From a virus: 31,821 nt of DNA. The position numbers were made by a program, and so were the translations under genes. Location of the stretch: positions 1 to 31,821 of IMG/VR virus record IMGVR_UViG_3300010885_007066; one strand, written 5' to 3'. Shown piece by piece: positions 5,302-30,420 of the stretch (positions are counted from its first letter, which is position 1; every line of letters begins with the position of its first letter). The notes under the pieces are model-generated. The model worked only from the letters and a program-made list of their open reading frames with translations. It was not told where the DNA came from and made no database searches.

Positions 5302-5738
5302 TGGCAACACTATACAATCAAAAAACCGTCGCGACAAACACCGCATCTGTCGGATCACAGGGTGCCACGGCATTTACATATAAAGGGTTTAATTCTTCAC
5401 AAACTAAAACTCAATTCAAGCTGTTTGATATTGACTTAGTTAAGCAAGATTTAATAAATCATTTTTATATTCGTAAAGGTGAAAAACTAGAGAATCCGGA
5501 CTTTGGAACAGTTATCTGGGATTTATTATTTGAACCGTTCACAGAAGATGTTAAAAAAATGATCGCAAGCGATGTTGAAGCGATCATTAACTATGACCCT
5601 CGCATTGCTGTAAATGCGGTTATTGTAGATAGCACAGACCAAGGAATAAGAATAGAAGCTGAATTAATATACCTGCCTTTTAATTTAAACGAAAAACTTA
5701 AATTAGAGTTCGATAAAAGCAATCGTACAATTAACTAA
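5301..5738 (+). CDS. gp25: Baseplate wedge protein gp25
   Basis: A 145-residue protein close to T4 gp25 (132 residues). The family signature is clear: DIDLVKQDLINHFYIRKGEK, then LENPDFGTVIWDLLFEPFTE, then a helical stretch and YDPRIAVNAVIVD. gp25 belongs to the same family as TssE of type VI secretion. It sits in the inner wedge with gp6 and gp53 and helps nucleate sheath assembly. The first 35 residues are a Thr/Ser/Gln-rich extension. The start codon overlaps the preceding stop by one base. The last gene before a promoter-bearing gap, it probably closes the transcription unit that begins upstream of the window. Confidence 0.92.
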   Translation: MATLYNQKTVATNTASVGSQGATAFTYKGFNSSQTKTQFKLFDIDLVKQDLINHFYIRKGEKLENPDFGTVIWDLLFEPFTEDVKKMIASDVEAIINYDPRIAVNAVIVDSTDQGIRIEAELIYLPFNLNEKLKLEFDKSNRTIN

Positions 5739-5779: not shown

Positions 5780-8700
5780 ATGACCGCTACAACTAGACAA
5801 AATAATTTAATTCTTAACGAAGATTGGAAAAGAATCTATCAGACATTTAAGAATGCTGACTTCAAAAGCTACGATTTTGAAAATCTTCGTCGTGTAATTA
5901 TTGATTATATTAGAGAAAATTATCCAGAAGATTTTAATGATTACATTGAATCTAGCGAATATCTCGCCTTAATTGACGCTATTGCATTTTTAGGACAGAG
6001 TTTAAGTTTCCGAATCGACCTAGCAAGTAGAGAAAACTTCATTGAATTAGCAGAGCGCAAAGAAAATATTTTACGCCTAGCTAGAATGTTAAGCTATAAC
6101 GCTAAACGTAATATTGCCGCCGAAGGATTGTTGAAGTTTGACACAATTAGTACTACAGAAGACATTGTTGATGGAAATGGAAAAAATCTAGCGCAACAAG
6201 TTATTATCTGGAATGACCCAACAAACACTAACTGGAACGAACAATTCTTACTAGTTTTAAATGCAGCAATGTCTGACAACACAGAATTTGGTCGTAGCCA
6301 AGGAACAGCATTTATTGACGGTATTCAAACAGACCAATACCGGTTCAGAACAACATCGAGAGATGTCCCTATCTATACATTTGTAAAAACAGTTGCTGGT
6401 CGTAGAATGGCGTTTGAATTAGTGAGCACATCGTTCCTAGGTAAAGAATCGCTATATGAAGAAGAACCAACACCCGGCAACCAATTAGGATTTATCTACA
6501 AGAACGATGCACGTGGCCCATCAAGTCCAAACAACGGCTTCTTTTTACTTTTTAAACAAGGTAGCCTAGAAGTAGCTAATTTTAAAATTGATGTTCCAGT
6601 AACGAACGAAAAAGTAGCAGTTGATGCTCAGGGCATCAATAATAGTGATGTTTGGTTATTTGCTCTAAGCTCTCAAGGAGGCCAATCAACAAAGTGGACG
6701 CAAGTGCCAAATTTAGTTGGAAACAATATTGCCTACAACAGCTTATCAAATCAAGTTAAAAATATCTACATGATTAATACTAGGGAAAATGATAAAATTG
6801 ATTTGTTATTTTCAGATGGAGTGTACGGAAATTTACCGAAAGGTAATTTTAGAATTTACTATCGAGTAAGCAATGGTCTATCATATTCCATCACTCCTGC
6901 AGATATGCGCGGAATCACAATTTCTATTCCTTATGTAAACACCTCCGGAGCAGCTCATACCTTAACAGTAAGTATGAGTTTAAAATATACTAAATCATCT
7001 TCAGCGCCATCGGAGTCTGTAGACTCAATTAGAGCAAATGCTCCAGCAACATATTATACACAAAATAGAATGATCACTGGCGAAGATTACAATCTTGCTC
7101 CGCTAGCAAGTAGTCAAGATATTTTAAAAGTAAAAGCAATCAATAGAACATCGAGCGGAATATCTAGAAATTTTGATTTAATCGATGCCTCGGGCAAATA
7201 TAGTAGTGTTACGGTATTTGCTGATGACGGATACATTTATAAAAATCCAAGTGAAATGGTTTCTAGTTTTAAATTTGTTAATAAGGTCGATATCTACAAT
7301 TTCATTAGACAATATTTAGAAACCATTTTATCAGATACAGATACCTACAACTTTTATCTTACAAAATTTACAAAGGTAATATTTGTTGACGATACTTCGT
7401 TATGGACAGACGTTGTGACACTTAACGGCTCAAGCACCGGGTATTTTAAAAATTCAGTAGACAACACTAAATTAAAAACTGGAGTTTATACAAATAACAC
7501 ATTGAAATATCTTACACCTGAGTCATTGATTAAGTTTGTCACCCCACCAGGCAAAGCATTTAAAAAAGGTGCGATAGTAACAGCAGATGCAACAGATCCA
7601 TTACAGACTTCCTATATATGGGCTAAAGTTATCAGTGTTGCTGGTGACGGAACAAATGCAGGAAGAGGAGCCCTTACTACCGGGCTTGGGCCAGTGACGT
7701 TAAGCAGTACGATCCCAACAGGTGCGATAGCATCGCGGCTAGTGCCAAAATTTGTTTCTAATTTTCCTACTTCTCTTGAAACTGAAATTGTGAATTTAGT
7801 GTTTGCTAATATTAATTTTGGTCTTCGCTATGATGTAACAGATACTACATGGAAAATTATTACGCCATCTAACCTTAATCTAGTTGATGATTTTAACTTA
7901 GGTAAAGCTGGAGATATTAGTAATTCAAATTTAGACGCCTCGTGGATTATCGCATTTATTAAACAACCAGATCGATATGTTGTGAAATCAAGAGGAATGG
8001 AATATGTATTTGGTAGTATTCAGCAGAATAGATTTTACTTTGACCCAGGTCAAAAAATTTACGATAGTCTTAACGGGACAGTAATCAAGGACCAAGTTAA
8101 GGTATTGGGTATTAATACCGCTTCCGATAAGATTACACAATTAGTGCAAGATATTCCTTTTGAAATTAGCGATAGTATAAAATATGAAGATGGATACCAA
8201 AGTACTAACGAAATTAAATTAGGTTTTTATGACAGCAATAATGACGGAGTAATTGACGACCCTGACGAATTTGAAAGAGTTGTTGGATTAGATTCCGACA
8301 CTCCGTTTATCTTTTTTAAACAAGTAGTCGACACAACAGGATCTATTGTTTATCAGTACCTTGATAATTCTAATGACACTATTATTCCTATACGACGAGA
8401 ACTTGACGTAAACATTAATGACCCGTATATAAATGGTCAATTGTTTTATTTTTATGATAGCACAGAAAATGTTATAAAGCGTATTGATAGAACAACAAAT
8501 ACTTTTGTCATTGACAATACATACAGAGGAAATATTGGCCGTGCAGGTATAAAATTTCAATATATCCATAATGCAAATGTAGATCGTAGAATAGATCCAA
8601 GTGTTAGCAATATTATTGATGTGTATCTGTTAACAAGATCTTACGATACAGATTTTAGAAATTATTTGTCCGGTCTCACTCCGAGTCCAGGAGTTCCAAC

Positions 8701-9190
8701 TTCCGATAGTTTACGAATCAACTTCGGTTCAAATTTAAATGCAATTAAATCTATTAGCGATGAAATTATTTTTCATCCTGTAACATACAAGGTATTATTT
8801 GGCGCTGCTGCAGATAGCAAATTACAGGCCGTGTTCAAAATAGTAAAAAATCCAAGTCGCACATCGAATGACAACGATCTTAAAGTTAGAATTATTTCAG
8901 CAATTAACACATTCTTTGATGTGTCTAATTGGGATTTTGGTGATAAGTTTTACTTGTCAGAACTGATTACATATGTAATTAATTCAACGTCACCTGATAT
9001 TTCTAATATGACAATAGTACCAAAACAAGCATCGCAGTCCTTTGGCAGCTTATTTGAAATACAAAGTAAGGCAGACGAAATTTTTGTTAGCGGAGCTACA
9101 GTGGATAATATTGAAATTGTATCTTCTATAAATGCAGCAGAGATCGGCGCGATCTCTTCAACGATTGTAACATCTACTAGTAATAATTAA
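5780..9190 (+). CDS. gp6: Baseplate wedge protein gp6 (enlarged)
   Basis: A 1136-residue protein. The N-terminus (about 1-130) is typical of marine-phage gp6: DWKRIYQTFKNADFKSYDFE, then YIESSEYLALIDAIAFLGQS and a helical RENFIELAERKENILRLARM. A baseplate-J-like core follows, including NRMITGEDYNLAPLASSQDI near residue 428. The C-terminal part (about 960-1115) has SNWDFGDKFYLSELITYVIN and a QSFGSLFEI segment, as in other gp6 proteins. gp6 forms the wedge ring joining hub to periphery and dimerises to lock the baseplate. T4 gp6 has 660 residues, so extra domains are inserted here, including an acidic EF-hand-like loop at residues 818-830. Stop and next start are 2 nt apart. Confidence 0.9.
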   Translation: MTATTRQNNLILNEDWKRIYQTFKNADFKSYDFENLRRVIIDYIRENYPEDFNDYIESSEYLALIDAIAFLGQSLSFRIDLASRENFIELAERKENILRLARMLSYNAKRNIAAEGLLKFDTISTTEDIVDGNGKNLAQQVIIWNDPTNTNWNEQFLLVLNAAMSDNTEFGRSQGTAFIDGIQTDQYRFRTTSRDVPIYTFVKTVAGRRMAFELVSTSFLGKESLYEEEPTPGNQLGFIYKNDARGPSSPNNGFFLLFKQGSLEVANFKIDVPVTNEKVAVDAQGINNSDVWLFALSSQGGQSTKWTQVPNLVGNNIAYNSLSNQVKNIYMINTRENDKIDLLFSDGVYGNLPKGNFRIYYRVSNGLSYSITPADMRGITISIPYVNTSGAAHTLTVSMSLKYTKSSSAPSESVDSIRANAPATYYTQNRMITGEDYNLAPLASSQDILKVKAINRTSSGISRNFDLIDASGKYSSVTVFADDGYIYKNPSEMVSSFKFVNKVDIYNFIRQYLETILSDTDTYNFYLTKFTKVIFVDDTSLWTDVVTLNGSSTGYFKNSVDNTKLKTGVYTNNTLKYLTPESLIKFVTPPGKAFKKGAIVTADATDPLQTSYIWAKVISVAGDGTNAGRGALTTGLGPVTLSSTIPTGAIASRLVPKFVSNFPTSLETEIVNLVFANINFGLRYDVTDTTWKIITPSNLNLVDDFNLGKAGDISNSNLDASWIIAFIKQPDRYVVKSRGMEYVFGSIQQNRFYFDPGQKIYDSLNGTVIKDQVKVLGINTASDKITQLVQDIPFEISDSIKYEDGYQSTNEIKLGFYDSNNDGVIDDPDEFERVVGLDSDTPFIFFKQVVDTTGSIVYQYLDNSNDTIIPIRRELDVNINDPYINGQLFYFYDSTENVIKRIDRTTNTFVIDNTYRGNIGRAGIKFQYIHNANVDRRIDPSVSNIIDVYLLTRSYDTDFRNYLSGLTPSPGVPTSDSLRINFGSNLNAIKSISDEIIFHPVTYKVLFGAAADSKLQAVFKIVKNPSRTSNDNDLKVRIISAINTFFDVSNWDFGDKFYLSELITYVINSTSPDISNMTIVPKQASQSFGSLFEIQSKADEIFVSGATVDNIEIVSSINAAEIGAISSTIVTSTSNN

Positions 9191-9192: not shown

Positions 9193-12100
9193 ATGGCAAA
9201 TAAAGTATTTCCTAAAAGTCAACTTCCGATTCGAAAAACTGCGGATTTCCTTCCACAGGTATTTCAAACAGACGCTAACGACAAATTCTTTAACGGAGCA
9301 TTTGATCCGTTAATTCAACCAGGAACATTAGAAAAGACCGTTGGCTATGTTGGTAAGAGATACGGTAAAACTTATAAAGGCAGTGACGTTTATCTTGACA
9401 CTGATAATACTTTAAGAAGTCGATATCAGTTAGAGCCAGCAATTGTTATTCGAAACAACGGCGAAGTTGAACGATTTTATGATTATATTGATTTAAAAAA
9501 TATGTTAGCTTTCTTTGGTAATACCGAAGAACGTGATGATCTAACAATGCATCAGTCTCATTACTCTTGGAATCCACCAATTGATTGGGACAAGTTTATT
9601 AACTATCGAGAATATTACTGGGTTCCAAGCGGACCACCACCATTACGAGTATACGGTCAAAATTCTACAGTGACCAGCACTTATAGAGTAAAGTTAGCAG
9701 AACAATCAGCATTTGTTTTCTTTCCAGACGGCTATACAAATAATCCAACGCTTACTCTATATCGCGGCCAAAAATACAAATTTATTGTTAATGCTCCAGG
9801 CAACGGTTTTTCTATCAGAACTTCATATGATACTGGGTCGTTACTTTATGTTCCTGACATGGCTTACCAAGCCGGTTCGTTGGTATTATTTGATGGCGGT
9901 CTCTGGAAAGCTAAAGTATCAATCGCACCAGGAGATGGAAGTACTATTGACAAAAATTCTCAAGATTGGGAATTTGTTGAGCTAGCTAACAGCCCAACAG
10001 CATTAGATTATACTAGTGGTCTCACAAATAACGGTGCAGAAACAGGAACAGTAACATTTGATGTACCATACGATACACCGGATGTGTTATATTATCAAAG
10101 CAAAACAGATCCAAATAGATTTGGTAGAATTTTAATTGAAGATATTGTTTCTAATACTACACTTGATATAGAAAAAGAAATTTTAAACAAAGTGACTTAC
10201 ACCAGTGGAAATAACATTTCATTTAGTAATGGTATGGTTGTTTCGTTTGGCGGAACTGCTACTCCTGCAAAATATTCTAAAGGTAATTGGTTAGTTGAGG
10301 GCGTTGGAACAAAAATTAGTCTTACACTGTTTGACGACCTAGTAGTTCCGGTATTATCAGCTACTCGACCAGAAGTATTATTTGACAATGACGGATTCGA
10401 TGACGTTCCCTACGATGATGCGACAACATATCCTTCCTCTCAAGATTATATTACAATTGCGAAAAGCAGTAAAGATGCGAACCCGTGGTCTAGATATAAT
10501 CGATGGTTTCATAAAAGTGTTTTAGACTATTCACATCGAATTTCAGGTTCAAATTCTCCTTTCGATTCATCTGAAACAGCTAGAGCAAAACGTCCTATTA
10601 TTGAATTTCAATCAAATCTAAAATTGTTCCGTCACGGGTCTTATGCGAAAGCGCCAGTTGATTTTATTGACACGTTTACAAAAGATGTATTTTCTAAAAT
10701 TGAAGGAAGTACCGGATATAATATCGACGGCGAAGATGTATTTGAGAGATCTAGAATTTTAGTTGTCGCAGATACAGACTCCCTAGCCAATAATCAAATA
10801 TACGAAGTTAACTTCATCGTATTCGAAGGCCGAAAACAAATAACTTTAAAAACAGTCGAAGACACCCCGTCCGTAATCGGAGAGACTGTTTTAATTAAAC
10901 GCGGCACAGAAAATCAAGGACTCATGTACTATTTTGACGGTAGTTCTTGGTTACCGAGTCAGGAAAAAACAAAGGTAAATCAACCACCACTATTTGATGT
11001 ATTTGATGATACAGGAATTAGTTTTGGTGATAGAGAAACGTATCCTGTTTCGACATTCTCGGGAACTAAAATTATCAGTTATACGGAAAGTTCCTCGGGT
11101 ATCGTTGACAAATATTTAGGATTTGCCTTAAGCCACCTAAACATTGATAATATCGGAGATATACAATTTACCAATGACTGGGACGTTGATGTGTTTACCT
11201 ATGAAGTTGATCGCCAAGCAGTTACTGATCGAATCTTAACAGGGTATTACAAATTTAATGATACGGGTGAATACGCCAACGGTTGGATAGAAACTAATAA
11301 CAAATATATTCAACCAATCATCGATTCTCAGATCGTTGCAGTTGCAACATCGTCAGTAACACTTACTACTATAGATTGGGATAAGTTAGATAAAGATGCT
11401 GAAATTTATTTTTATCTCAACGGAGTAAAAATAACTACACCATATACTAGAAAAGATAAAACTTTTACATTCAGCAGAACTTTTACAGCTAGTGATGTAA
11501 TTGTTGTTAAGATATTTTCAAACATCCCACCTGATACCGGATATTATGAAATTCCTGTAGCGTTAGAAAAAAATGCAGGAAATCGACCAATCGAGTCGTT
11601 TACATTCGGACAAGCAGTGGATCATATTTCGACCGGTTTAGAATTCTATTCTGACTTCACAGGATCTTTTTCAGGTGACAGCGGAAATCTTAGAGATATT
11701 TCTGGTTACCAACAATATACAAAACGATTTCTAAAACATGCAAATCTTTCTGGATTATCTATTTTTATTTTAGCTGATACAGATTTTAACATAATCAAAT
11801 CTATTAAGTTTGCTAAAAAATCCTATACAGAATTTAAAAACAATTTCTTAACAGCAATTGCACAAATTAATTATGATAGTAATATTGCAAATTTTGTTGA
11901 CGATGCAATAAAAGAAATTACAAAAGCTAAAACAGACGCAACTCCGTTTTCAAACTCAGATATGATCGGCAGCGGGTCATTTACACCGATATATCATACT
12001 GTTGAAGATACCGGAATAAAAACTTTTGCATTATCGGAGCAGTTTAGTTTAGATCTTTATCCCACACATACAAGACGTGCGGTTTATGTTTATCACAACG

Positions 12101-15100
12101 ACAGACAGTTAATAGTTAATAAAGAATACGATTTTAATTTAACATTCCCATTTGTTAATCTTAAGATTGATCTTCAAGAAGGCGATAATATTGAAATTAG
12201 AGAATATACTTCTACTGCTATTAACTTTATTCCAGAAACTCCTACAAAATTAGGGATGTATAAAAAATATCTTCCTAACAAGTTCTTAGACGATACATAT
12301 GTTGAACCTCGAATGATGATTCAAGGCCATGATGGAAGTTTAATTACAGCATTTGGCGACTACCGAGATGACGCAATTTTAGAATTAGAATTGCGCATTT
12401 ACAATAATCTTAAATCAGAGTATGACGAACAAATCTTTAACAATGACGATGTATTAGGGGGATATTATAATACTGGAATCTTCGGTAAAGATAAAATATC
12501 TGAAATTATTAATCGAGAATTTTTAAGTTGGATTTCGAATTCAAATGTTGATTATATCACTAACGAATATTTTGATTCTGAAAATTCATTTACCTATACG
12601 TATTCTAAAATGTCTGATCCGACAGGAACACAAAATCTTTTAGGGTATTGGAGAGGAATTTATCGATGGTTTTATGATACTGATCGCCCCCATCGTTGCC
12701 CGTGGGAAATGTTAGGTTTCAGCGAAAAACCCGATTGGTGGGAAATTGAATACGGTCCAGCACCTTACACTAGCAATAATTTAATTTTGTGGGAAGATCT
12801 TGCAAATGGTATTATTAGACAAGGACCTCGTGCGGGGCAATATGCTCGATATTCTAGATCAACATTATTATCACATATTCCAGTCGACGGCGATGGAAAA
12901 CTATTAAGTCCGTTAGAATCTAATCTTGCACAAAACTTTTCTCTAGCCAATGCCACTGCTGACTTTGCACTTGGCGACGTAGCTCCGGTAGAACACACGT
13001 GGGTCAATACTAGTGAATATCCGTTTGCTATTAGTTTAGCACTAGCGTTACTACGACCTATTGATTTTATCGGTCAAAACTTTAATAGAATTCAATCAGT
13101 AACAAATATTTTAAATCAAAAGATTTATAGAACATCGGGAACATTCATTACTCAAGAAGATCTGTTACCCGATAATCTCGGAACAACAGATACCAATGGA
13201 TTAGTAAATTGGGGAGCAGACTATCTCAAGAGTCGAAATATAGATATCGGAATTCTAGGCACCTCAATCATTGCTGCGATCGATGTTGCACTAACACATC
13301 GACTAAGCGGGTTTGTTGATCAGACCCAACAAAAGTTTATTTTAGACAGTAAGACTCCGTCGTCAACTTCAGGTAACGTTTTTGTTCCTCCTGAAAACCA
13401 AAAGGTATTTTTTAACGTTAGTACTCCAATAAGAACTATCGTTTATAGCGGTGTAATTATTGAAAAATTAGACAGGGGTTGGAAAATACGAGGATACGAT
13501 AGTCTCCAACCGTATTTTAAATATTTTGAACCAATTCCTACACAAGCTGATGGGTTAATGGCAGTCGGCGGAATAAGTGAAGAGTTTATAGTATGGACCG
13601 CCCAACAATTCTTCGGTAACGGTGTTATTATTCAACACCAAAATGAGTATTATAGAAGCCTAGGTAGTCATACCTCGGGATTATCGTTCGATTCTACGTT
13701 ATGGAAAAAACTTCCCGGGTTACCTAAGAAAAATGCTGTCGAAGCGTTGAATAGAAAAACATTCAACACAGTTTCTGAAGCTATATTAAACTATGGAACA
13801 GTCCTAACAACTATTCAGTCAGTAGTTGATTTCTTCTTCGGATATGAACAGTATCTAATTTCTCAAGGATTTAAATTCGATCGATATGACAGTGATAATA
13901 AGGTTACACAAAACTGGACAACAAGTGCAAAAGAATTTATGTACTGGACCGTTCATAATTGGGCCACTGGGTCACTAATTACATTAAGTCCAGCTGCTGA
14001 AAAATTAGATATGTCTTTTGCTATCGGTGTTCCGGCTAATTTACTAGATAGTTTTTACGATTATCAAGTGTATAAGAGTGATGGCACTCCGATCGCTCCG
14101 ACCTATCTAAATATTAAACGTGAAGTTCAGCATGTAACAGTAGAAACAACAAATACTACCGATGGAATTTATTTCTTTAAGACACATTTAGTAATTAAAG
14201 AACACGTTGTTATTTTCGACGACCGTACAGTGTTTAATGATGTTATATACGATAAAACCACAGGCTATAGACAAGAGAGAATCAAATCAAGAGGATTCCG
14301 TACAGTTGATTGGGCCGGTGATTACACTAGTCCTGGATTTATATACGACAACGTAAATATTTCAGTATGGCAACCTTACACTGATTATAAACTCGGTGAT
14401 ATTGTGTCATATAAAGAAAATTCTTGGACATGCCAGCAAAATCAAGTAGGTACCTTAGAGTTTGACACTGCAAAATGGTCAATATTAGACTCTACTCCTG
14501 CCCGCTCACTAGTTCCAAATTTTGATTATAGAATTAATCAGTTTTCAGATTATTACAATTTAGATTCGGACGGTTTAGAATCAAGCCAGCGTGATCTAGG
14601 ACGCCACGCAGTTGGTTATCAGAAGAGGGAATATTTACAAAATCTTGCAGAGGATGATGTAACACAGTTCCAGTTGTATCAAGGATTTATTAGAGACAAA
14701 GGAACACTAAATGCTGCTACTAAAATATTTGATAAACTTAGCAAGACTGCAGAAGATGCTATTGTATTAAATGAAGAATGGGCATTTCGTGTTGGTACGT
14801 TTGGTGGTAAAGATCAACTAAAAGAAATAGAATTTTCTTTAGACAAAGGTAAATTCCAACTTAATCCACAACCGATTGTATTTGTTTCTGCAGAGCCAAG
14901 TATAACACTTTTAGATCAATATTTGCGCATACCTCCATCACAGTTTACAAAATCCGATTCGCCGTTTGTAACAAATATGTTACCAAAAGTTATCGCTGAT
15001 AATTTGCAAACTGCAGGTTATGTTAAGCTAGATCAAGTCGATTATATTCTGAAATCTCGTTCCAATATTGTAAGTGTAGATATTGCTGGAGTTAAAGAGA

Positions 15101-18100
15101 ATGATCATTTCTGGATTACATTTGACGGGTTCTCGTGGACTGTGTTACGACTAAACAAAAAACCAATTTTATCAATTACTTCTGCAACAAAAGTTAGTGC
15201 ATCAGTCACGTTAACTTTTAATCGTGATCATAAATTAGCGGTGGGCGATATTATTGGAATTTCAGAGATTGTAAATCTTACAGGTTTCTTTGAAATTACA
15301 GCAGCGACTTTGCGCACAGTAACAGTTACGGTGGCGGCAAATGCACAAGAGCCATTGGTTGATCAAAGTACGGTATACGGAATTTATGGTTTCACTGAAG
15401 CTAGAATTAAATCTCCCGAAGACCTTTTGCCAACGGCAGCAGCGGCGTTAAGGGCAGGATCAAAATTATGGCTCGACTCTGTTGAAGGCATTGGTTGGCA
15501 AGTAGTTGAAAAGAACAAGGTATTTGAGTATAAACAACTCAGTAACTACGGAACATCGGTTCCGTTGGGCGCAGGCTCGGCAGTGCTTCATGCAGATATA
15601 TTAAAACAGACCATTGTAAGTATGCCAGCGTCGTCTGTCGTATCTACCTATCTCGAAAGCGATACATTACAAATTAAACAAGTTATACTTCCAGAGTTAA
15701 TATTAGAATCAATATTAGGAAACTCTTTTGGATCCGCAATGGCAGTGAGCCCGGATAACCGATGGTTAGTAATTGGAGCTCCAAATACATCTGGTGCATT
15801 ATCATTTTACAGAGGCGACTACAGTGCTACAGTAGATTACAACGAAGGCGATATTGTTTTATCTCATGGCAAACTATGGACTGCCAATAAGTTTGTTCCT
15901 AAAAATAAAGATGATAGCACTCGTAATATTATAGGCCTTGGATCTTCTGATTGGGATATTGCAACAGTCGTATCGTATGATCCTGTTCATGGCACCAATG
16001 TTGGGCCGATAAATCAGGGATTGATTAATATCTATCAATGGACGAACAATAATTGGCAGTTGTTTAAAATTTTATTAAGTCCACGAATTGCTGCAAATGA
16101 ATTATTCGGTAGTAAACTCTCCATAGGTTTTGATGGCTTTGATTACTGGATGTCAGTATCTGCGCCAGGTGCCCTAGCCGATCGAGGAAGAGTATACCTA
16201 TTCAAGTTCACTGGAACTGAATGGGAAATGCATGAAAATAATAATTATCGCGGCATTTATGAAAGCAATGTAAGATACCATAAAGGTTCTATAGTCTGGT
16301 GGGACGGAGACTTATGGGAAGCGCAAGTTGACATTAATGAAGATAGCGCCAGCGATAGTACAATTGCTATTCAAAGCAACGATCCAACATTTGCAGCTGA
16401 GTGGAAACAGATAGATCCGGTCTTTACACAAAATTCTTTACCAACAAATATTGCATTAGTTGATGATGGATCAACTCTAGGCCTAGGGTTATTGAGTAAA
16501 ACACAACAAGCTGAATTAACTAAACAAGGCGACCAGTTTGGTAGCAGTATTGCTATGAACAAAGATGGTTCTATACTAGTTGTTGGAGCCCCGGATAGCG
16601 ATGGCGAATACTTTGAAAATTACAAAGGTGAATGGAACAAATATCAAGAATATCAAGTTGGTGATGTTGTTAAGTATGTTGGAAATAATAATAATCCTGG
16701 ATATTCTTCTCAAGGGTATTATAAATTAATCGATCCTAGAAACTGGACAGACGCTACTACTTATGATTCAACATTAACATTTAATAGTGCTAATCAATCT
16801 CCAGAAAACGGAGACCCTTGGGTATCAGTAGGAGATAGCTCTTCTAACTCTACGGGGAAAATTTATATCTATCAACGAGATAGTAATCAAATATATCAAT
16901 TGAAACAAACTATCACAGCACAAACATTAAATGATGTCAACGATACTGGAATTAAAGAATATCTGTATGTAGGTGATAAATTTGGGTTTGCGGTTGATAT
17001 AGATTCTTCCGGAAAAAACATTGTTGTTTCTAGCCCACTCGCAGATATCAATTTACAAAACCAAGGATCTGTTTATTATTTTAATAGTACAAATTTAAGT
17101 ACTCCTACATGGAGATTAAAACAAAAATTAGAAAGCTACGAGGAATATAATAATATTTTATTTGGTTCAAGTGTTAGTATTAGTGCAGGAACTGAACGCA
17201 TTGTGGTAGGTGCAAAGAATACACCATATAAGAAATATTCATATTTTTCTGATAATACAATATTTGATAAAAATACAACTTCGTTTTCCGAATTCCAGGG
17301 ATATGCTGGCCAGGTATACTCCTTTGAGCGTGTTGGCGGAAAATATTTGTTGTCTGAAAAATTACAAGCAGATTTACAAGAACACGAATCATTTGGACAT
17401 AGCGTTGATGCAACAGCCGATATTATTGTAGTTGGTTCGCCTAATTATCAAACTATTACATTACGTTTAGTAGACGATATAGTTATAGGCACACGATATA
17501 CTATTGTAAGTATCGGTAACGATATTAGACCAACAGATTTTACACTGATGGGAGCATCTACTGGTAATGTAGGCGAATCCTTTGTTGCTACACGAAATGG
17601 TATTTTAACTGCCGGTAATTTTGTTATCGGAAAAATTTATATTATTCGGTCAACCGGAACTACATTATTCACCTCTATTGGTGCTGCTGATAATGAGCCG
17701 GGAACAGTTTTCAAGGCAACAGGTATCGGAAGTGGTGACGGCACCGCAGTTCAGGGTACAGGAACAGTAAGCACAGTTGATTTAATAGGAACCGTTAGAA
17801 CATTTAGTAAAATTAATGGTCAAAATTCATTTACGACTTTAGAACAACAAGAGTTGGTAGTAGATACTACTAAAATTAAAAATATTGCATTAATTGATAG
17901 TGTTAAAAATATAAAAATATCAGAAGTTGATATTGTTGACAACGCTAAACTAAAAATATTAGATGTAGCTGAACAAGAATTACAATTTAAAACTCCTTAC
18001 GATCCAGCAACGTATACTAACGGCACTGACGAACAAGTAGTAGCTCCAGACTCCGCATGGTTTGAAAAGAATGTGGGTAGATTATGGTGGAACCTTTCTA

Positions 18101-21100
18101 CAGCCAAATGGGTGTATTACGAGCAAGGCGATACCGCGTATAAAATCGGAAACTGGAATAGATTAATTACAGGAGCAAGTATTGATGTCTACGAGTGGGT
18201 AGAGTCTGTATTATTACCGTCTGAATGGAGTGCATTGGCGGATACTGCCGACGGAATCTCTAATGGAATATCCGGACAGCCCTTGTATCCAAATGACGAT
18301 GTTTACTCTGTTAAACAAATTTATAATCCAGCTACTCAATTATTAACTGAAACTCGATACTACTATTGGGTTAAAGGTTCAACAATTACTCCAACAAATC
18401 TTGTCGGAAGAAAGCTATCAGCGGCAGCAGTTGCAGCACTAATTATTGATCCATCAGTTCTTGGAACTCCGACATTGGCAATTGTCGACAGTGATACTAT
18501 ATTGGCCTATAATTTTGCCAATGCACTAACCTCTGGGTCTGGATTGCTTAATATTGAATTATATAAAGATGCAATAACAGTTAATCCGGTGCATAAGGAA
18601 TATTTGTTATTGTCTTCAGGCGTTGCTGATAGCGTACCTAACTCGGTATTAGAAACAAAGTGGATAGATAGCCTAGTAGGATTTGACCAAGCAGGTAATC
18701 CGGTTCCTGATTCAAAATTGCCAGAACGAGACAAATATGGGTTAAGTTTTAGACCAAGACAGTCGATGTTTAAAAATAAGACAGCGATTTTACAACTCGT
18801 AGTTAATAACATTAACACAATTTTAGCCACAAAGTCCTTTAGTGATACATTAAATTTTAATATATTAAATCTTTTTGATAATATTCCTTCGGTTGAATTA
18901 AACGATTACGATGACGCAGTAGCTACACTAGTAGATCTAACACAGTATCCGGTTAACCGCGTAAGACAAGCAATTTTAAAACCTAATATTATCAACGGTG
19001 AAATTGACACAATAGATATTGTAGATCCAGGATTCGGATACAAAGTTGCACCATATATAGATATTGAAGGTGCAGGAACTGGAGCTACAGCAACCGTAAC
19101 TATTGACAAACAGGGAAGAGTCAGTTCTGTATTAATGCTGACAAAAGGCAAGCGATATGATTCGGCAATTATTAAAATTAGAGAATATTCTGTATTGGTA
19201 GAGTCAGATCCGTCTATAAGCGGGTACTGGGCAATATATTCTTGGGATCAAGCTAGAAATCAATTTTACAGACGCAAAGCACAAGGATACGATACTCGCC
19301 GCTATTGGGAATCTATTGATTGGTGGAAAGATGGATATAGTCCACTAACAAAAATTGCATTTGAAATCCCAGCGTTATATCTAGAACCAACCCTAATAGT
19401 AAATGTTGGTGAGCTAATTCGTGTTCGTGAATACGGAAATGGTGGATGGGCAGTCTTGGCAAAAACTGATGTAGGTCTAGGCGATGTCTTAGGTAATTAT
19501 GTTCTTGTAGGAAGAAATAACGGAACGATTGCTTTAAAAGAATCTCTATATAATACATCAACAACTTCTATCGGTTACGATAATGTTGGATATTACGATA
19601 CAAATTTATATGACTTGTATCCAGCGGCGGAGTTAAGAAATATTTTAAAAGCTGTAAAAGAAGACATATTTGTTGATGACTTAACCGTTGAATGGAATAA
19701 ATTATTCTTTGCCAGTATCTCATATGCCTTCTCAGAACAACCAACAATTAATTGGGCGTTTAAGACTAGCTTTATTAATGCTGTACACAATGTAGGTACG
19801 CTTGAACAAAAATTAAATTATAAAAACGATAATTTGCCAGCATATCAACAATATCTGGAAGAGATTAAACCTTATAGAACTTCTATTAGAGAGTATACAA
19901 GTCGATACAACTTTGTAGAACCTTCAAACACAACCGCAGTTGATTTTGATTTACCGCCAGTATATTCTCCACGAGACGGAAGAATTGTTCCTGTTGGTCA
20001 AGGATATAATCTATTTGATCAGTATCCTTGGAAATTCTGGGCAGATAATCAAGGATTTTCTATATCTAAAATTAATGTATCGTACAGCGGAGAAAATTAT
20101 GTAACTCCACCAACAGTCATTATTGAAGGTAACGGCACCGGAGCAACAGCAAGAGCGTTTGTATCTAACGGTGTAGTTTCTGGAATTGAGGTAGTATCTC
20201 CTGGAAAAAATTACACACTAACTCCAACAGTAACACTAGTCGGCGGTAATGGTTCTAGTCTCAAGATTGCAAAAGCATCAGTTATTTTAGGTGATAGCAA
20301 AGCCAGAATATTTGATATGACATTGAAGTTTGATCGAATTACCAAGGATGGAATGTTAACCTCATTCAGTAATTCACAGCAGTTTACTGTTACAGGAGTT
20401 ACTGCGGTATTTAATCTTGCATATGCTCCGACCCGAGATAAAAATAAAATTAGCATATACAAAAACAATCAGTTGGTCTTAAACAGCGAATATAATTTGC
20501 AATTTTACAGATCAACAGTTGATACATATCAATTATTAAAAGGAAAATTAATTTTTATTACTCCGTTAGTAACCGGTGACATTGTTGACATTGAATATGA
20601 AAAGAATGACGAGCTATTAGACGGAGTCAACAGGATTCAAAAATACTATGCACCGACTGACGGCATGCTCGGTAACGATGTTGGACAGCTAATGACCGGT
20701 ATAGATTTTGGCGGAGTACAAGTCCAAGGCACAACATTTGAGATCACAGGCGGATGGGATGCCCTTCCGTGGTTCACGGACGGATGGGATAGTGTGGACC
20801 CTAATTCGGATTATTATGTAGTAGTTGACGGCAGTACAGCAATAATCAAGCTACCATTTATTCCTGCAGATGGCCAGATGATTTCGATCTACGTAAAACG
20901 TGCAGATACAAAAAATACAGTCAGAATCGACGATCCGTTGTATGATCGGTATGACGGGTCAACAGTACAGGATAACGGTCTAAAAGCTAGACCACCAACA
21001 TCTCTAATGCCTAGTTTCCGAGGAGACGGAAGTACAACTGATATTAGCTTTGAAGGTTACTTTAGAATGCATGCCGGAGATTTAATGATTTTTAGGCCAT

Positions 21101-23562
21101 TCGAAAGTGATGGCTCCGTAGAAATTAATGATCCTAATTTATTAGATACAAAAATCATTGGCGGGTCTTTAGCTGGAATGAGTGGCGCATACTCAACAGC
21201 AACTGGTAAGACGCCCGAAGAAATTATTTTAGACGGTGACGACTTTATTACTCCTACTCAAGTGCCCGCCCCAGAAGAAAATGTTCCAGGTCAGGTGTTG
21301 GATAGTGTTAGTATTAAAGTTTTTCAGAATACTAATTCTGGATCATCACCGATGCAAAACACAGTTTTATTCAGCGACGGATCAACTACTAGATATCCTA
21401 TCGGCTTAACAGTACTTGAGTCGTCTGCGGTATTAGTATATGTAAACAAAGTAAAATATGGATACTATGATTATAATGATGATAGTAATCTAGATTACAC
21501 TATTAGTTTTAACACTAATGAAATTATATTCTTTACAGCTCCTCCAATAAATGCGTTGATTGAAATTATTGCAATTGGTAGAGGCGGTGTAGAGTTGTTA
21601 GATTATCAAGAGTTTATTACAGATGGTAATACAGATCTGTTCTTAACCCAAGCAGATTACGCTACAACACAGTCGGTATTTGTCACACTTGACGGCGACT
21701 ATATTGATACTAGATTTACAAATAGCTCGGATATTGCTATCACTACCGGTGCAGAGATTACTCCAGAAAAGTCTATAGTTCAGTTTGCAAATAAACCAGC
21801 AGCTGGACAGGTAGTAAAAATTATTGCGTTCGGAGCATCATTAAATTCAGATAGCAGTGGGCAATCTATTATTCGTGTAAACAATCAGAGATTTAATTTT
21901 ACCGGCAGTACCCGTACATTTGAACTAGATAGATTTATAGATTTATCTAGAAGTTCAACAGCGGGTTCGATGTTAGTGATGTTGAATAATAAAAAATTAC
22001 GCGGCCCAGACACATATTATACAGTGTATGACGGAACAAATAATAATGTTCTAGTAGGTACTGATCCCGTTGCAACAGTAACAGCAGTGGATATTAAAGT
22101 TTATATTAATAATATATTACAGCCGTTTGTCACTGCATACGTATATAATGGTACTAATAAAACTGTTACAGTAAACACTGCTTTCTTAACACTTCAAGAT
22201 GTTATCAAAGTTGAGATATTAGTTAACGCACAATATTTAATCAGTGCAAATAATAATCTAACTATTAATTCAAATGTAACAATGATCAGCGGCGACCGAT
22301 TAGAAGTAACATGGTTCAGCGAGTACGCAACATATGATATTATATCAGATACATATTCAGGCGGTAAGGTAAATTATTCTCTTTCTAGAGATCCGTTAGA
22401 CAGCAACTATGTTTGGGTTTACCTGAACGGAGACCGATTATCAAACGGCACAGATTTCTATGTGTCATTACCACGCAATGTGGTCTATATCACTAACGAT
22501 ACAACATCTGCCGATGTTGTTGAAATTATACAATTTGGTAATCAAATTTATAAAGATCCTCGAGCCTATGAGATCTATAAAGACATGCTAAACATTACTC
22601 ATTATAATAGGTATTCTTTAGGAGAAGTTAAATTAGCCCAAGATTTAAATTATTACGATACTGAAATTGTTGTAACTGATGCAAGCATGCTAGACGAGCC
22701 AATTGTCAATCGAAATATCCCAGGATCGATTAGCATTAGGAACGAACGAATTGAGTATCTAACAAAAACAGGTAATGTTCTTGGACAGTTAAGACGCGGT
22801 AGTTTAGGATCTGCAATTGGAATTAGTTACCCAGCTGGAACTAGATTATCCAATGCCGGAGCAAGCGATATTATATCTTATTCTGATACACAGGAAAAAG
22901 AAGATTTTATCAGTGGCGGTCCAGCTACATTCGTGTACGACGGTAGCACCCAGTTTGAACTTAATAGTAAAGTAGAATATGGTAACGGAAATAAAGACAA
23001 CCTAATTGTTACTGTAAACGATAAACCCATTAAAGCTTCTAGCTATACTCTAACCGATACTTCGAATGGCGGTTTTATAACATTAAGTATCCCGGTACAT
23101 TATAATGACGGAACTAATGTTGCACTAGCAGATAATGATGTGATTTCTGTAACATCGTTACTTGCAGGACCATTAAGTTTTGTACCGTTACAATCTGATA
23201 GATCGTTCACATCAAGCACAGGAATTCCAACATTGTATAGTATGTGTGATCAACTCGATGTATTTGTTGGTGGTCGAAGACTTAGAAAAGATTCGTTAAA
23301 AGTTTATTCTGAAAAGTTAGGTGCCAGCAGCCCGTCTGCTGACATAACCCTAGCTCCTGAGTTTTCAGTTGACGGTGTTGGAAATTATATCAGAATAACT
23401 GAGCCGGTTCCAGCCGGCACACGTATTTTAATAATTAGAAAAATAGGAAAAATTTGGTACGATAGAGCCGAAACGACAGCTAGTACAGGTGTTACTTTAC
23501 TAGATAACGTAAACCCAATCGCAAGATTCATAGATCAAAAGTCGACTGAGTTGCCTGAATAA
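9193..23562 (+). CDS. Giant (4789-residue) baseplate/tail structural protein at the gp7/gp8 position
   Basis: One uninterrupted frame that begins 2 nt after gp6 with no visible Shine-Dalgarno site, so translation is probably coupled to gp6. The N-terminus (LPQVFQTDANDKFF, RYQLEPAIVIRNNGEV, SWNPPIDWDKFINYREYYW), residues 1037-1070 (IQGHDGS, AFGDYRDD) and 1153-1195 (WFYDTDRPHRCPWEMLGFSE) recall giant structural proteins of marine T4-like phages. Six aromatic GDIV-type modules lie at about 221-263, 1467-1508, 1725-1766, 2212-2258, 2355-2408 and 2484-2546. FG-GAP-type propeller blades span 2177-2760. Two IGA-type repeats follow at 2764-2857. Two GxGTGATA-type repeats lie at 3272-3330 and 3626-3687. 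From about 3730 onward there are repeated beta-sandwich segments. No enzyme motif was recognised. It follows gp6 where T4 has gp7 and gp8, so a peripheral wedge or arm role is inferred; T4 gp7 is only about 1030 residues. The class is fairly sure, the exact function is not. Confidence 0.72.
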   Translation: MANKVFPKSQLPIRKTADFLPQVFQTDANDKFFNGAFDPLIQPGTLEKTVGYVGKRYGKTYKGSDVYLDTDNTLRSRYQLEPAIVIRNNGEVERFYDYIDLKNMLAFFGNTEERDDLTMHQSHYSWNPPIDWDKFINYREYYWVPSGPPPLRVYGQNSTVTSTYRVKLAEQSAFVFFPDGYTNNPTLTLYRGQKYKFIVNAPGNGFSIRTSYDTGSLLYVPDMAYQAGSLVLFDGGLWKAKVSIAPGDGSTIDKNSQDWEFVELANSPTALDYTSGLTNNGAETGTVTFDVPYDTPDVLYYQSKTDPNRFGRILIEDIVSNTTLDIEKEILNKVTYTSGNNISFSNGMVVSFGGTATPAKYSKGNWLVEGVGTKISLTLFDDLVVPVLSATRPEVLFDNDGFDDVPYDDATTYPSSQDYITIAKSSKDANPWSRYNRWFHKSVLDYSHRISGSNSPFDSSETARAKRPIIEFQSNLKLFRHGSYAKAPVDFIDTFTKDVFSKIEGSTGYNIDGEDVFERSRILVVADTDSLANNQIYEVNFIVFEGRKQITLKTVEDTPSVIGETVLIKRGTENQGLMYYFDGSSWLPSQEKTKVNQPPLFDVFDDTGISFGDRETYPVSTFSGTKIISYTESSSGIVDKYLGFALSHLNIDNIGDIQFTNDWDVDVFTYEVDRQAVTDRILTGYYKFNDTGEYANGWIETNNKYIQPIIDSQIVAVATSSVTLTTIDWDKLDKDAEIYFYLNGVKITTPYTRKDKTFTFSRTFTASDVIVVKIFSNIPPDTGYYEIPVALEKNAGNRPIESFTFGQAVDHISTGLEFYSDFTGSFSGDSGNLRDISGYQQYTKRFLKHANLSGLSIFILADTDFNIIKSIKFAKKSYTEFKNNFLTAIAQINYDSNIANFVDDAIKEITKAKTDATPFSNSDMIGSGSFTPIYHTVEDTGIKTFALSEQFSLDLYPTHTRRAVYVYHNDRQLIVNKEYDFNLTFPFVNLKIDLQEGDNIEIREYTSTAINFIPETPTKLGMYKKYLPNKFLDDTYVEPRMMIQGHDGSLITAFGDYRDDAILELELRIYNNLKSEYDEQIFNNDDVLGGYYNTGIFGKDKISEIINREFLSWISNSNVDYITNEYFDSENSFTYTYSKMSDPTGTQNLLGYWRGIYRWFYDTDRPHRCPWEMLGFSEKPDWWEIEYGPAPYTSNNLILWEDLANGIIRQGPRAGQYARYSRSTLLSHIPVDGDGKLLSPLESNLAQNFSLANATADFALGDVAPVEHTWVNTSEYPFAISLALALLRPIDFIGQNFNRIQSVTNILNQKIYRTSGTFITQEDLLPDNLGTTDTNGLVNWGADYLKSRNIDIGILGTSIIAAIDVALTHRLSGFVDQTQQKFILDSKTPSSTSGNVFVPPENQKVFFNVSTPIRTIVYSGVIIEKLDRGWKIRGYDSLQPYFKYFEPIPTQADGLMAVGGISEEFIVWTAQQFFGNGVIIQHQNEYYRSLGSHTSGLSFDSTLWKKLPGLPKKNAVEALNRKTFNTVSEAILNYGTVLTTIQSVVDFFFGYEQYLISQGFKFDRYDSDNKVTQNWTTSAKEFMYWTVHNWATGSLITLSPAAEKLDMSFAIGVPANLLDSFYDYQVYKSDGTPIAPTYLNIKREVQHVTVETTNTTDGIYFFKTHLVIKEHVVIFDDRTVFNDVIYDKTTGYRQERIKSRGFRTVDWAGDYTSPGFIYDNVNISVWQPYTDYKLGDIVSYKENSWTCQQNQVGTLEFDTAKWSILDSTPARSLVPNFDYRINQFSDYYNLDSDGLESSQRDLGRHAVGYQKREYLQNLAEDDVTQFQLYQGFIRDKGTLNAATKIFDKLSKTAEDAIVLNEEWAFRVGTFGGKDQLKEIEFSLDKGKFQLNPQPIVFVSAEPSITLLDQYLRIPPSQFTKSDSPFVTNMLPKVIADNLQTAGYVKLDQVDYILKSRSNIVSVDIAGVKENDHFWITFDGFSWTVLRLNKKPILSITSATKVSASVTLTFNRDHKLAVGDIIGISEIVNLTGFFEITAATLRTVTVTVAANAQEPLVDQSTVYGIYGFTEARIKSPEDLLPTAAAALRAGSKLWLDSVEGIGWQVVEKNKVFEYKQLSNYGTSVPLGAGSAVLHADILKQTIVSMPASSVVSTYLESDTLQIKQVILPELILESILGNSFGSAMAVSPDNRWLVIGAPNTSGALSFYRGDYSATVDYNEGDIVLSHGKLWTANKFVPKNKDDSTRNIIGLGSSDWDIATVVSYDPVHGTNVGPINQGLINIYQWTNNNWQLFKILLSPRIAANELFGSKLSIGFDGFDYWMSVSAPGALADRGRVYLFKFTGTEWEMHENNNYRGIYESNVRYHKGSIVWWDGDLWEAQVDINEDSASDSTIAIQSNDPTFAAEWKQIDPVFTQNSLPTNIALVDDGSTLGLGLLSKTQQAELTKQGDQFGSSIAMNKDGSILVVGAPDSDGEYFENYKGEWNKYQEYQVGDVVKYVGNNNNPGYSSQGYYKLIDPRNWTDATTYDSTLTFNSANQSPENGDPWVSVGDSSSNSTGKIYIYQRDSNQIYQLKQTITAQTLNDVNDTGIKEYLYVGDKFGFAVDIDSSGKNIVVSSPLADINLQNQGSVYYFNSTNLSTPTWRLKQKLESYEEYNNILFGSSVSISAGTERIVVGAKNTPYKKYSYFSDNTIFDKNTTSFSEFQGYAGQVYSFERVGGKYLLSEKLQADLQEHESFGHSVDATADIIVVGSPNYQTITLRLVDDIVIGTRYTIVSIGNDIRPTDFTLMGASTGNVGESFVATRNGILTAGNFVIGKIYIIRSTGTTLFTSIGAADNEPGTVFKATGIGSGDGTAVQGTGTVSTVDLIGTVRTFSKINGQNSFTTLEQQELVVDTTKIKNIALIDSVKNIKISEVDIVDNAKLKILDVAEQELQFKTPYDPATYTNGTDEQVVAPDSAWFEKNVGRLWWNLSTAKWVYYEQGDTAYKIGNWNRLITGASIDVYEWVESVLLPSEWSALADTADGISNGISGQPLYPNDDVYSVKQIYNPATQLLTETRYYYWVKGSTITPTNLVGRKLSAAAVAALIIDPSVLGTPTLAIVDSDTILAYNFANALTSGSGLLNIELYKDAITVNPVHKEYLLLSSGVADSVPNSVLETKWIDSLVGFDQAGNPVPDSKLPERDKYGLSFRPRQSMFKNKTAILQLVVNNINTILATKSFSDTLNFNILNLFDNIPSVELNDYDDAVATLVDLTQYPVNRVRQAILKPNIINGEIDTIDIVDPGFGYKVAPYIDIEGAGTGATATVTIDKQGRVSSVLMLTKGKRYDSAIIKIREYSVLVESDPSISGYWAIYSWDQARNQFYRRKAQGYDTRRYWESIDWWKDGYSPLTKIAFEIPALYLEPTLIVNVGELIRVREYGNGGWAVLAKTDVGLGDVLGNYVLVGRNNGTIALKESLYNTSTTSIGYDNVGYYDTNLYDLYPAAELRNILKAVKEDIFVDDLTVEWNKLFFASISYAFSEQPTINWAFKTSFINAVHNVGTLEQKLNYKNDNLPAYQQYLEEIKPYRTSIREYTSRYNFVEPSNTTAVDFDLPPVYSPRDGRIVPVGQGYNLFDQYPWKFWADNQGFSISKINVSYSGENYVTPPTVIIEGNGTGATARAFVSNGVVSGIEVVSPGKNYTLTPTVTLVGGNGSSLKIAKASVILGDSKARIFDMTLKFDRITKDGMLTSFSNSQQFTVTGVTAVFNLAYAPTRDKNKISIYKNNQLVLNSEYNLQFYRSTVDTYQLLKGKLIFITPLVTGDIVDIEYEKNDELLDGVNRIQKYYAPTDGMLGNDVGQLMTGIDFGGVQVQGTTFEITGGWDALPWFTDGWDSVDPNSDYYVVVDGSTAIIKLPFIPADGQMISIYVKRADTKNTVRIDDPLYDRYDGSTVQDNGLKARPPTSLMPSFRGDGSTTDISFEGYFRMHAGDLMIFRPFESDGSVEINDPNLLDTKIIGGSLAGMSGAYSTATGKTPEEIILDGDDFITPTQVPAPEENVPGQVLDSVSIKVFQNTNSGSSPMQNTVLFSDGSTTRYPIGLTVLESSAVLVYVNKVKYGYYDYNDDSNLDYTISFNTNEIIFFTAPPINALIEIIAIGRGGVELLDYQEFITDGNTDLFLTQADYATTQSVFVTLDGDYIDTRFTNSSDIAITTGAEITPEKSIVQFANKPAAGQVVKIIAFGASLNSDSSGQSIIRVNNQRFNFTGSTRTFELDRFIDLSRSSTAGSMLVMLNNKKLRGPDTYYTVYDGTNNNVLVGTDPVATVTAVDIKVYINNILQPFVTAYVYNGTNKTVTVNTAFLTLQDVIKVEILVNAQYLISANNNLTINSNVTMISGDRLEVTWFSEYATYDIISDTYSGGKVNYSLSRDPLDSNYVWVYLNGDRLSNGTDFYVSLPRNVVYITNDTTSADVVEIIQFGNQIYKDPRAYEIYKDMLNITHYNRYSLGEVKLAQDLNYYDTEIVVTDASMLDEPIVNRNIPGSISIRNERIEYLTKTGNVLGQLRRGSLGSAIGISYPAGTRLSNAGASDIISYSDTQEKEDFISGGPATFVYDGSTQFELNSKVEYGNGNKDNLIVTVNDKPIKASSYTLTDTSNGGFITLSIPVHYNDGTNVALADNDVISVTSLLAGPLSFVPLQSDRSFTSSTGIPTLYSMCDQLDVFVGGRRLRKDSLKVYSEKLGASSPSADITLAPEFSVDGVGNYIRITEPVPAGTRILIIRKIGKIWYDRAETTASTGVTLLDNVNPIARFIDQKSTELPE
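15721..17475 (+). repeat. FG-GAP-type beta-propeller repeats inside the giant protein
   Basis: Six protein-level repeats combine an FG(S/H/F) motif with a V-(I/V)-x-(G/S)-(A/S) strand. They start near residues 2177 (NSFGSAMAV, LVIGAPN), 2302 (ELFGSKLSI, SVSAPG), 2446 (DQFGSSIAM, LVVGAPD), 2594 (DKFGFAVDI, IVVSSPL), 2654 (ILFGSSVSI, IVVGAKN) and 2732 (ESFGHSVDA, IVVGSPN). Six or seven such units close a propeller in integrin-alpha-like proteins, where they mediate binding. Long insertions separate the first four blades. The classical DxDxDG calcium loops of integrins are not evident. Confidence 0.6.
19006..20253 (+). repeat. Two copies of a Gly-rich GxGTGATA beta module
   Basis: Residues about 3272-3330 and 3626-3687 of the giant protein align by eye. 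Each has an entry strand with a G-(F/E)-(G/N)-Y turn, a P-x-(V/I)-x-I-E-G strand, the GTGATA turn, a (Q/N)G-(R/V)-V-S strand and a second G-K-x-Y turn. The second copy is the more complete, ending in TPTVTLVGG. Between them lies a conserved-looking Trp-rich stretch (YWESIDWWKDGYSP, about 3371-3386). Confidence 0.55.
20380..23460 (+). repeat. C-terminal array of beta-sandwich repeats in the giant protein
   Basis: Residues about 3730-4760 contain several degenerate units of the pattern: a Ser/Thr-rich strand, (V/I)-x-V-x-(V/L)-N/D-x-x-x-L/I, a Tyr-rich loop, then an exit strand ending V-x-I-x-x-(F/I)-G. Examples are AVLVYVNKVKYGYYDYND, SVFVTLDGDYID, IKVYINNILQPFV, YVWVYLNGDRLSNGTDF and LIVTVNDKPIKASSYTL. 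Similar units occur near the N-terminus at about 737-777 and 950-1006. A distinct segment at about 4470-4560 has DTEIVVTDASML and RNERIEYLTKTG. The arrangement suggests an elongated fibre-like arm; that is inference. Confidence 0.5.
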
Positions 23563-23565: not shown

Positions 23566-23590
23566 GTATATGGAGAAAAAAGAGCCTAAA

Positions 23591-24238
23591 ATGGAACAAA
23601 ATCAGAATCATACTAGTGAAAAACCAGAACAAAAACCGCACGAAACCGGTGGGTTCCACTTCGAAGGGCATATCAAAATATTTGATCCCCAAACACAAGA
23701 GGTGTTTATTAATAAAAGAAATGCCATCCACTATGAAAATATGTCGGTGGCAATGGTGCAAAGTCTTTCAAATCAAGGCCAAGGCACTGTATATCAAATG
23801 GCATTCGGCACAGGAGGAACTATTGTTGACCCAACTGGCCTTATTACATATTTGACTCCAAACACTGTAGGTGTAAATTCGAGTCTATACAATCAAACAT
23901 ATCAAAAGATTGTTGACCAAAATTCATCTCAAAACTCTGATCCTGTAAGAAATAAAATGGAAGTTAGACATATTAGCGGAGCAACATACAGTGATATTAT
24001 TGTTAGTTGTTTGCTGGACTACGGCGAACCAGACGGACAAGATGCATTTGACAATAGTCAAAACATGAGTGGCAGTTTTATCTTTGATGAACTGGGTTTA
24101 AAAAGTTATAATCCTGCAGGAGAAGGAAAACTGTTAACTCACGTTATCTTTCATCCTGTGCAAAAGTCACTAAACAGACTACTACAGATTGATTACACGA
24201 TCCGTGTACAAAGTTTAACTGGATTTAGTGAGGTTTAA
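23591..24238 (+). CDS. Conserved phage structural protein of unknown function
   Basis: 215 residues from the ATG at 23591, or 222 from the in-frame ATG at 23570. I prefer 23591 because the late promoter just upstream would start transcription at about 23571 and because AGAG (23581-23584) is spaced 6 nt from it; the earlier ATG lacks a ribosome site. The first residues are hydrophilic and Gln/Glu/Lys-rich. The body begins with FEGHIKIFDPQTQEVFINKR, then NAIHYENMSVAMVQSL, and ends with FIFDELGL, LLTHVIFHPVQKSLNRLLQI and a DYTIRVQ strand. I recall similar proteins of this size beside giant tail proteins in marine phages, but with no assigned role. Its position between the giant wedge-like protein and the fibre-like genes suggests a small baseplate or fibre-attachment protein. 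It could stand in for T4 gp8 or gp9, but nothing visible proves that. Confidence 0.65.
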   Translation: MEQNQNHTSEKPEQKPHETGGFHFEGHIKIFDPQTQEVFINKRNAIHYENMSVAMVQSLSNQGQGTVYQMAFGTGGTIVDPTGLITYLTPNTVGVNSSLYNQTYQKIVDQNSSQNSDPVRNKMEVRHISGATYSDIIVSCLLDYGEPDGQDAFDNSQNMSGSFIFDELGLKSYNPAGEGKLLTHVIFHPVQKSLNRLLQIDYTIRVQSLTGFSEV

Positions 24239-26322: not shown

Positions 26323-26336
26323 TAACGGAATAAACT

Positions 26337-28244: not shown

Positions 28245-28261
28245 TAAAGGGGCGAATAAGA

Positions 28262-30379: not shown

Positions 30380-30389
30380 AAAAGGTTCA

Positions 30390-30397
30390 GATAAATA
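30390..30397 (+). promoter_or_regulatory. T4-type late promoter (GATAAATA)
   Basis: Exact NATAAATA match in the 41-nt gap before the fourth fibre-like gene, 23 nt upstream of its ATG. Spacing allows a leader of about 18 nt that contains a GGAG ribosome site. It would allow independent late expression of the fourth paralog and whatever follows outside the window. Confidence 0.65.
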
Positions 30398-30409
30398 ACA
30401 ATAGATAAT

Positions 30410-30413
30410 GGAG
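30410..30413 (+). promoter_or_regulatory. Shine-Dalgarno site GGAG for fibre-like protein 4
   Basis: GGAG is spaced 7 nt from the ATG at 30421 and fixes the start of the truncated last gene. Confidence 0.6.
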
Positions 30414-30420
30414 CAAAGTA

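Follow-up and report, generated by a model that had tools for sequence, protein, structure and literature searches.

A giant virion protein of the PHROG_10938 family encoded directly after gp6, with an FG-GAP propeller in an exchangeable slot

The window analyzed here, a linear IMG/VR record of 31,821 bases, carries in this order genes for a gp53-like wedge protein (99 aa; 1119..1418, +), a virion protein with no assigned role (1420-3780), a gp5-like hub/spike protein (3784..5301, +), the baseplate wedge proteins gp25 (5301..5738, +) and gp6 (1,136 aa; 5780..9190, +), a giant virion protein of the PHROG_10938 family in the gp7 position (9193..23562, +; identified by its open reading frame, profile match, and relatives), a 222-aa protein of phrog_11259 directly 3' of the giant (23570..24238, +), and four consecutive fibre-like genes (24241-31821), the last of which runs past the window end. 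The gp5-like hub gives weak OB-fold and DUF2345-type matches and no lysozyme domain in Pfam, in which it differs from T4 gp5. Gp6 is about 1.7 times as long as T4 gp6, and is thus enlarged in the lineage, as is the protein in the gp7 slot. The four fibre-like paralogues share about 190 N-terminal residues at 33-43% identity and diverge behind them: the first has a tail-collar domain, and the second and third give weak matches to a Rax2-type propeller and to Peptidase_G2, respectively. A gene for a ~200-aa protein also follows the giant, directly or with one small gene between, in PA5oct-like, Phosso, SCTP-2, Vibrio, and Atu_ph07 phages, and its presence there in several divergent jumbo phages suggests that this protein is a functional partner of the giant.

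The giant gene starts with an ATG at 9193, leaving a gap of 2 nt after the end of gp6 at 9190, and runs through 4,789 codons to 23562 without an internal stop, which confirms the original prediction of an unbroken frame filling nearly half of the window (45%). At the window's base composition, the chance of an open run this long is ~10^-156. Complete IMG/VR relatives from other contigs also have the frame uninterrupted (4,549-4,918 aa), so it is neither an assembly artefact or fusion nor a chance frame, and isolates carry an open reading frame of 3,323-4,555 aa at the equivalent place. The apparent splits in two metagenomic relatives (L066 and L133; L111 is the same contig as L066 and was not counted as an extra case) are frame changes inside continuous homology and were taken as sequencing or assembly errors.

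Much of the chain matches phrog_10938 ('virion structural protein', 3,324 positions) in four stretches at E 3e-303, and the giant as a whole belongs to this single described family in PHROGs. The category 'head and packaging' that PHROGs assigns to this family is doubtful in view of the gene order: giants of the family sit right after gp6 in Rak2-like, PA5oct-like, and Atu_ph07-like jumbo phages. Among isolates with an annotated gp6, the homologues directly following it are Atu_ph07 gp180 (4,449 aa), Phosso (4,555 aa), Cassandra (PA5oct-like; 3,857 aa), 121Q gp582 (3,323 aa), RaK2 ORF070w, CBB_236, and phAPEC6 gp245. In SCTP-2 (gp140, 3,807 aa) and Vibrio phage 2.275.O (3,771 aa), the upstream gene is large and carries no gp6 label in the record; the gp6 profile matches this upstream gene in the Vibrio phage and a gene elsewhere in the genome in SCTP-2. 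These giants are homologous to the window protein over most of the chain and share its place and size. Relatives of the N-terminal part are encoded on at least 594 IMG/VR stretches, and the idea that the giant is a one-off mosaic does not hold. Nor is it unusual as a gene, since giants in the gp7 slot are the rule in the lineage.

Giant gp7-slot proteins are known more widely, as cyanophage S-MbCM6 carries one of 7,022 aa in the same slot (YP_007001806, T4-GC_108; phrog_701/2885), which likewise follows gp25 and gp6 and contains GxGY repeats, about ten of them (L095:3780-24848). A search for homology between the window protein and the cyanophage giants found only the GxGY repeat in common; the S-MbCM6 giant can be bridged to T4 gp7 via phrog_26741, whereas the window protein has no such bridge.

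Presence in purified virions, as originally anticipated, holds for two homologues rather than for the window's own virus. By mass spectrometry, purified CBB virions yielded 21 unique peptides of CBB_236, covering 7.72% of it (PMC5259590), and purified phAPEC6 virions yielded 17 peptides of gp245 (381.88 kDa), at 7.6% coverage (PMC7247149). Virion detection of homologues does not in itself put the giant in the baseplate. The same data bear on whether the giant is a polyprotein from which gp7-, gp8-, and gp10-like parts are released as the virion assembles, as its length and modular build might suggest. We consider this very improbable: phAPEC6 gp245 appears in the list as a single product of 381.9 kDa, though its peptides are compatible with cutting, no protease or cleavage site was identified, and no slice of the protein matches gp8 or the core of gp9.

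The protein opens with a conserved N-terminal region (aa 1-147; 9193..9633, +; phrog_10938 at E 4e-24) that the structure model shows, with low confidence there, as partly helical, followed by a cupredoxin-like domain (aa 148-336; 9634..10200, +; phrog_677 at E 7e-11) of a kind also found in cyanophage gp9-type connectors. Within this domain lies a CBM5/12-like module recognized by motif (~aa 218-265; 9844..9987, +), which most of the sister clade lacks. Conserved core 1 (aa 400-1250; 10390..12942, +) includes a gp10/tailspike-type beta-sandwich at ~aa 710-780 and, at aa 867-910, a helical segment. Conserved core 2 (aa 1400-1900; 13390..14892, +) includes a ChtBD3-like module at ~aa 1468-1507 that matches the chitinase A1 chitin-binding domain at E 0.0012, as well as a CBM_5_12 module at aa 1726-1751 (14368..14445, +) that scores 41.3 bits against a Pfam cut-off of 26.2. 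Beyond the slot described below come conserved core 3 (aa 2890-3206; 17860..18810, +), a GxGY beta-repeat module (aa 3259-3333; 18967..19191, +), a conserved, partly helical segment (~aa 3478-3590; 19624..19962, +), a second GxGY module (~aa 3628-3700; 20074..20292, +), and a C-terminal part rich in 'VYVNG'-type beta modules that is poorly conserved in isolates (20410..23559, +).

AlphaFold2 models of aa 1-1200 (mean pLDDT 80.0, 56 sequences) and aa 2890-3640 (mean pLDDT 76.8, 52 sequences) are moderately confident. The first matches cupredoxins, namely rusticyanin (E 4e-4, prob 1.0) and two-domain laccases, and also residues 1-250 of TSP4 (E 2e-3, prob 1.0), whose XD modules share folds with T4 gp10 (PMC8825819). 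Among predicted viral structures, its matches are the Atu_ph07 protein and proteins of uncultured phages that bear the name 'YHYH domain-containing'. The second model has no PDB match at E <= 0.001 in the fold search, which covers conserved core 3, and no gp7 chain is among the PDB matches listed for either model, gp7 structures being present in the PDB. PDB profile searches with the conserved parts gave nothing significant apart from chitin-binding modules. The Foldseek output carries no aligned ranges, and the cupredoxin placement was made by sequence: we infer that the match falls at aa 148-336 because this stretch matches phrog_677 and relatives keep an NP.LTLYRG..Y.F motif there. The usual Cys, His, and Met copper ligands were not seen on inspection of the domain end, so the domain is probably structural.

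The original prediction was that of a possible wedge component with its own adhesion arm, standing in for separate gp7, gp8, gp9, and gp10. To search for such parts, the family profile was cut into overlapping slices of 300 residues, which were run against T4 gp6-gp11 and gp53 profiles, with reversed slices as the null and the family's own gp6 against T4 gp6 as the positive control (E 8e-5). For gp7 and gp8, no slice matched above the reversed-profile null; homology is rejected at this sensitivity only, remoter homology being beyond the reach of the control. Sequence-profile similarity to T4 gp7 (phrog_964) was likewise not found, nor was a match to phrog_977 or to the gp8-homologous part of phrog_438. 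What phrog_438 ('baseplate wedge') does match lies at its positions 186-262, T4 gp8 aligning at 3-86; this is the GxGY repeat of aa 3259-3333, which also matches head-closure and hub families, and it was rejected as evidence for gp8. Similarly, phrog_677, a gp9-type connector family, matches at 301-347 and 364-411 of 412, its C-terminal part, whereas T4 gp9 corresponds to its N-terminal part (3-112), and homology to T4 gp9 is not supported. For gp10, the signals are weak and at module level (E 0.003-0.007, the best null reaching 0.025), and do not go beyond a generic beta-sandwich. The slices also gave a gp53-like signal at aa 737-893 (E 6e-4 to 7e-4), which was set aside when a deeper alignment left it at E 0.012. 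Judged by where the profiles align, the matches to 'baseplate' families are attributable to promiscuous modules, the GxGY beta-repeats and the cupredoxin-like domain.

With T4 gp7 (1,032 aa), the giant has in common its place after gp6; gp7 is ~4.6 times shorter, and no match to it was found in sequence or, for the two modelled parts, among the PDB fold matches listed. With T4 gp10 and the XD modules of CBA120 TSP4, it may share a generic beta-sandwich (model E ~1e-3, plus the weak profile signal); the likeness seen is limited to short modules and does not take in the gp10 N-terminus or its trimer architecture. Separate gp7 and gp8 genes were found in none of seven complete jumbo-phage relatives, gp6 being detected in all seven (the Vibrio phage record is labelled partial), and gp10 appears in two of the seven as short pieces only. 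Both gp7 and gp8 also went undetected in eight metagenomic contigs of 199-353 kb, which are possibly incomplete. The data fit a giant that replaces gp7 and gp8 but do not prove it. What stands of the original prediction is the conserved position between gp6 and the fibres, the homologues in virions, the propeller and binding-like modules, and the failure to detect a separate gp7 or gp8 in seven complete relatives; what is not supported is homology to T4 gp7, gp8, and gp9, and the gp10 resemblance is weak and limited to a generic module.

The propeller and binding-like modules foreseen from the sequence are indeed present. Six FG-GAP repeats of an integrin-type beta-propeller (aa 2175-2218, 2299-2342, 2443-2488, 2592-2635, 2651-2694, and 2731-2765; 15715..17487, +) were recognized with a clade-specific model over aa 2175-2765, and Pfam FG-GAP_2 scores 66.7 bits against a cut-off of 23. 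The scattered Trp-rich blocks of the original prediction turned out to be largely CBM5/12 (ChtBD3)-like modules, at ~aa 225, 1468, 1726, 2216, and 2361; one passes the Pfam cut-off, and the rest are motif or weak profile matches. In this clade, such modules interrupt the cupredoxin-like domain once and the propeller twice, the latter two lying between blades by motif (~aa 2216-2260 and 2361-2410; 15838..16422, +). The FG-GAP repeats are those of integrin-type propellers, here built into a giant of the baseplate region, with CBM-like modules inserted between blades. In Atu_ph07, FG-GAP repeats occur in a separate gene, gp320 ('hemagglutinin protein'), unlike in the window giant; it encodes a free-standing FG-GAP protein adjoining a tail-sheath gene (L254:2519-3700).

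The propeller sits in a slot (~aa 2109-2871; 15517..17805, +) whose content is exchangeable. Between anchors near aa 1860 and 2945, the window protein has ~1,000 residues, and across the family this distance ranges from ~250 aa in Rak2-like phages to 1,579 aa in Atu_ph07. The PHROG_10938 giants of isolates examined differ from the window protein in having no FG-GAP propeller in this gene; most have ~250-570 aa in the slot, and Atu_ph07 and Phosso have ~1,500-1,600 aa rich in GxGY repeats, in which no FG-GAP was found. Metagenomic relatives near 36% identity retain diverged FG-GAP repeats. In another relative, L129 (4,029 aa, ~50% identical to the window protein), the chain jumps from the equivalent of aa 2108 to that of aa 2872 in one frame. 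This close relative, on a 217-kb contig (L129:15740-16678), cleanly misses the entire propeller, and no FG-GAP match occurs anywhere in that contig. In a tree of the N-terminal region, all 67 metagenomic rows group together against the isolates (support 100), and L129 is placed among the propeller-bearing members (SH-aLRT 97). The tree was built quickly and its isolate branches are long, so its root and deep order are unsure. Since L129 is without a propeller yet nested among propeller-bearing relatives, the simplest reading is that the propeller was ancestral to the metagenomic clade and was lost in L129. Five further loci labelled in the tree as having no blades (L138, L149, L150, L155, and L170) were left out of the argument, their coverage of the slot being uncertain; L153 has a weak FG-GAP match. 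A limited survey of open-access literature returned no description of an exchangeable propeller cassette. The giant is thus a real, well-supported gene of a known family, and its notable part is the exchangeable propeller cassette.

Taking these findings together, we consider it probable that the giant is a large wedge-scaffold protein of a T4-like jumbo-phage baseplate, in the gp7 position, with an exchangeable adhesion or docking cassette. It has gp7's place in the gene order and would probably have it in the structure too, beside gp6, gp25, and gp53, presumably within the wedge and in direct contact with gp6. The conserved segments (~aa 1-200, 400-900, 1000-1700, 1800-1900, 2900-3200, and 3400-3600) would form the common scaffold, and the beta-rich modules between and after them would form the periphery and a docking place for the fibres encoded just downstream. 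In this clade, one fixed slot holds an FG-GAP beta-propeller that has CBM5/12-like inserts; the cassette most likely projects from the wedge and binds glycan, whether that of the host surface, where it would act as a secondary adhesin, or that of a partner protein in the virion.

Since many of its modules are common to fibres and connectors, and the relatives CBB and phAPEC6 have hair-like filaments (PMC5259590, PMC7247149), the giant might instead be part of a fibre or whisker-like appendage. That seems unlikely to us, given that the gene is linked to gp6 and gp25 in those isolates that were examined and that the family is kept in RaK2, where the long fibres map to gp526-gp534, not to ORF070w, and the baseplate receptor-binding protein is gp098 (PMC10253068). 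With the RaK2 fibres and receptor-binding protein in other genes, receptor binding in these relatives does not depend solely on the giant.

For the wedge scaffold itself, the role of the cassette may be read in another way. FG-GAP propellers and CBM5/12-like folds may also serve as structural or protein-docking modules, and the propeller and CBM-like modules could be structural spacers that bind virion proteins, such as fibre adaptors or neighbouring wedges, and not host adhesins. Four fibre paralogues with a common N-terminal region lie just downstream, and the CBM5/12-like motif is spread along the whole chain, even inside the cupredoxin-like domain; gp10-type XD2 and XD3 modules serve as docking sites for tailspikes and fibres in CBA120 and T4 (PMC8825819), and the N-terminal model resembles them. 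We regard this as possible but on the unlikely side, as the slot changes its content among relatives that keep the scaffold, a pattern seen more typically in host-facing parts, and the PDB relatives of the CBM5/12 modules are chitin-binding. A binding role of the propeller cassette is suggested by its module type. A stronger form of the preferred wedge-scaffold reading, in which a single chain of ~0.5 MDa stands in for gp7, gp8, and parts of gp10 and has a fixed-slot exchangeable receptor-binding cassette made of the FG-GAP propeller and CBM5/12 inserts, we hold to be doubtful.

The giants encoded after gp6 rank with the largest proteins that T4-like jumbo phages make, and are labelled just 'structural' or 'hypothetical' across the literature and records surveyed. 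That they form one family, in which a conserved scaffold carries a swap-in slot, offers a concrete and testable view of how baseplates of very large size may be constructed. The slot suggests a place where host binding could evolve within a core structural gene; were the stronger form true, host range would evolve by cassette turnover within a core baseplate gene, and not only in separate fibres.
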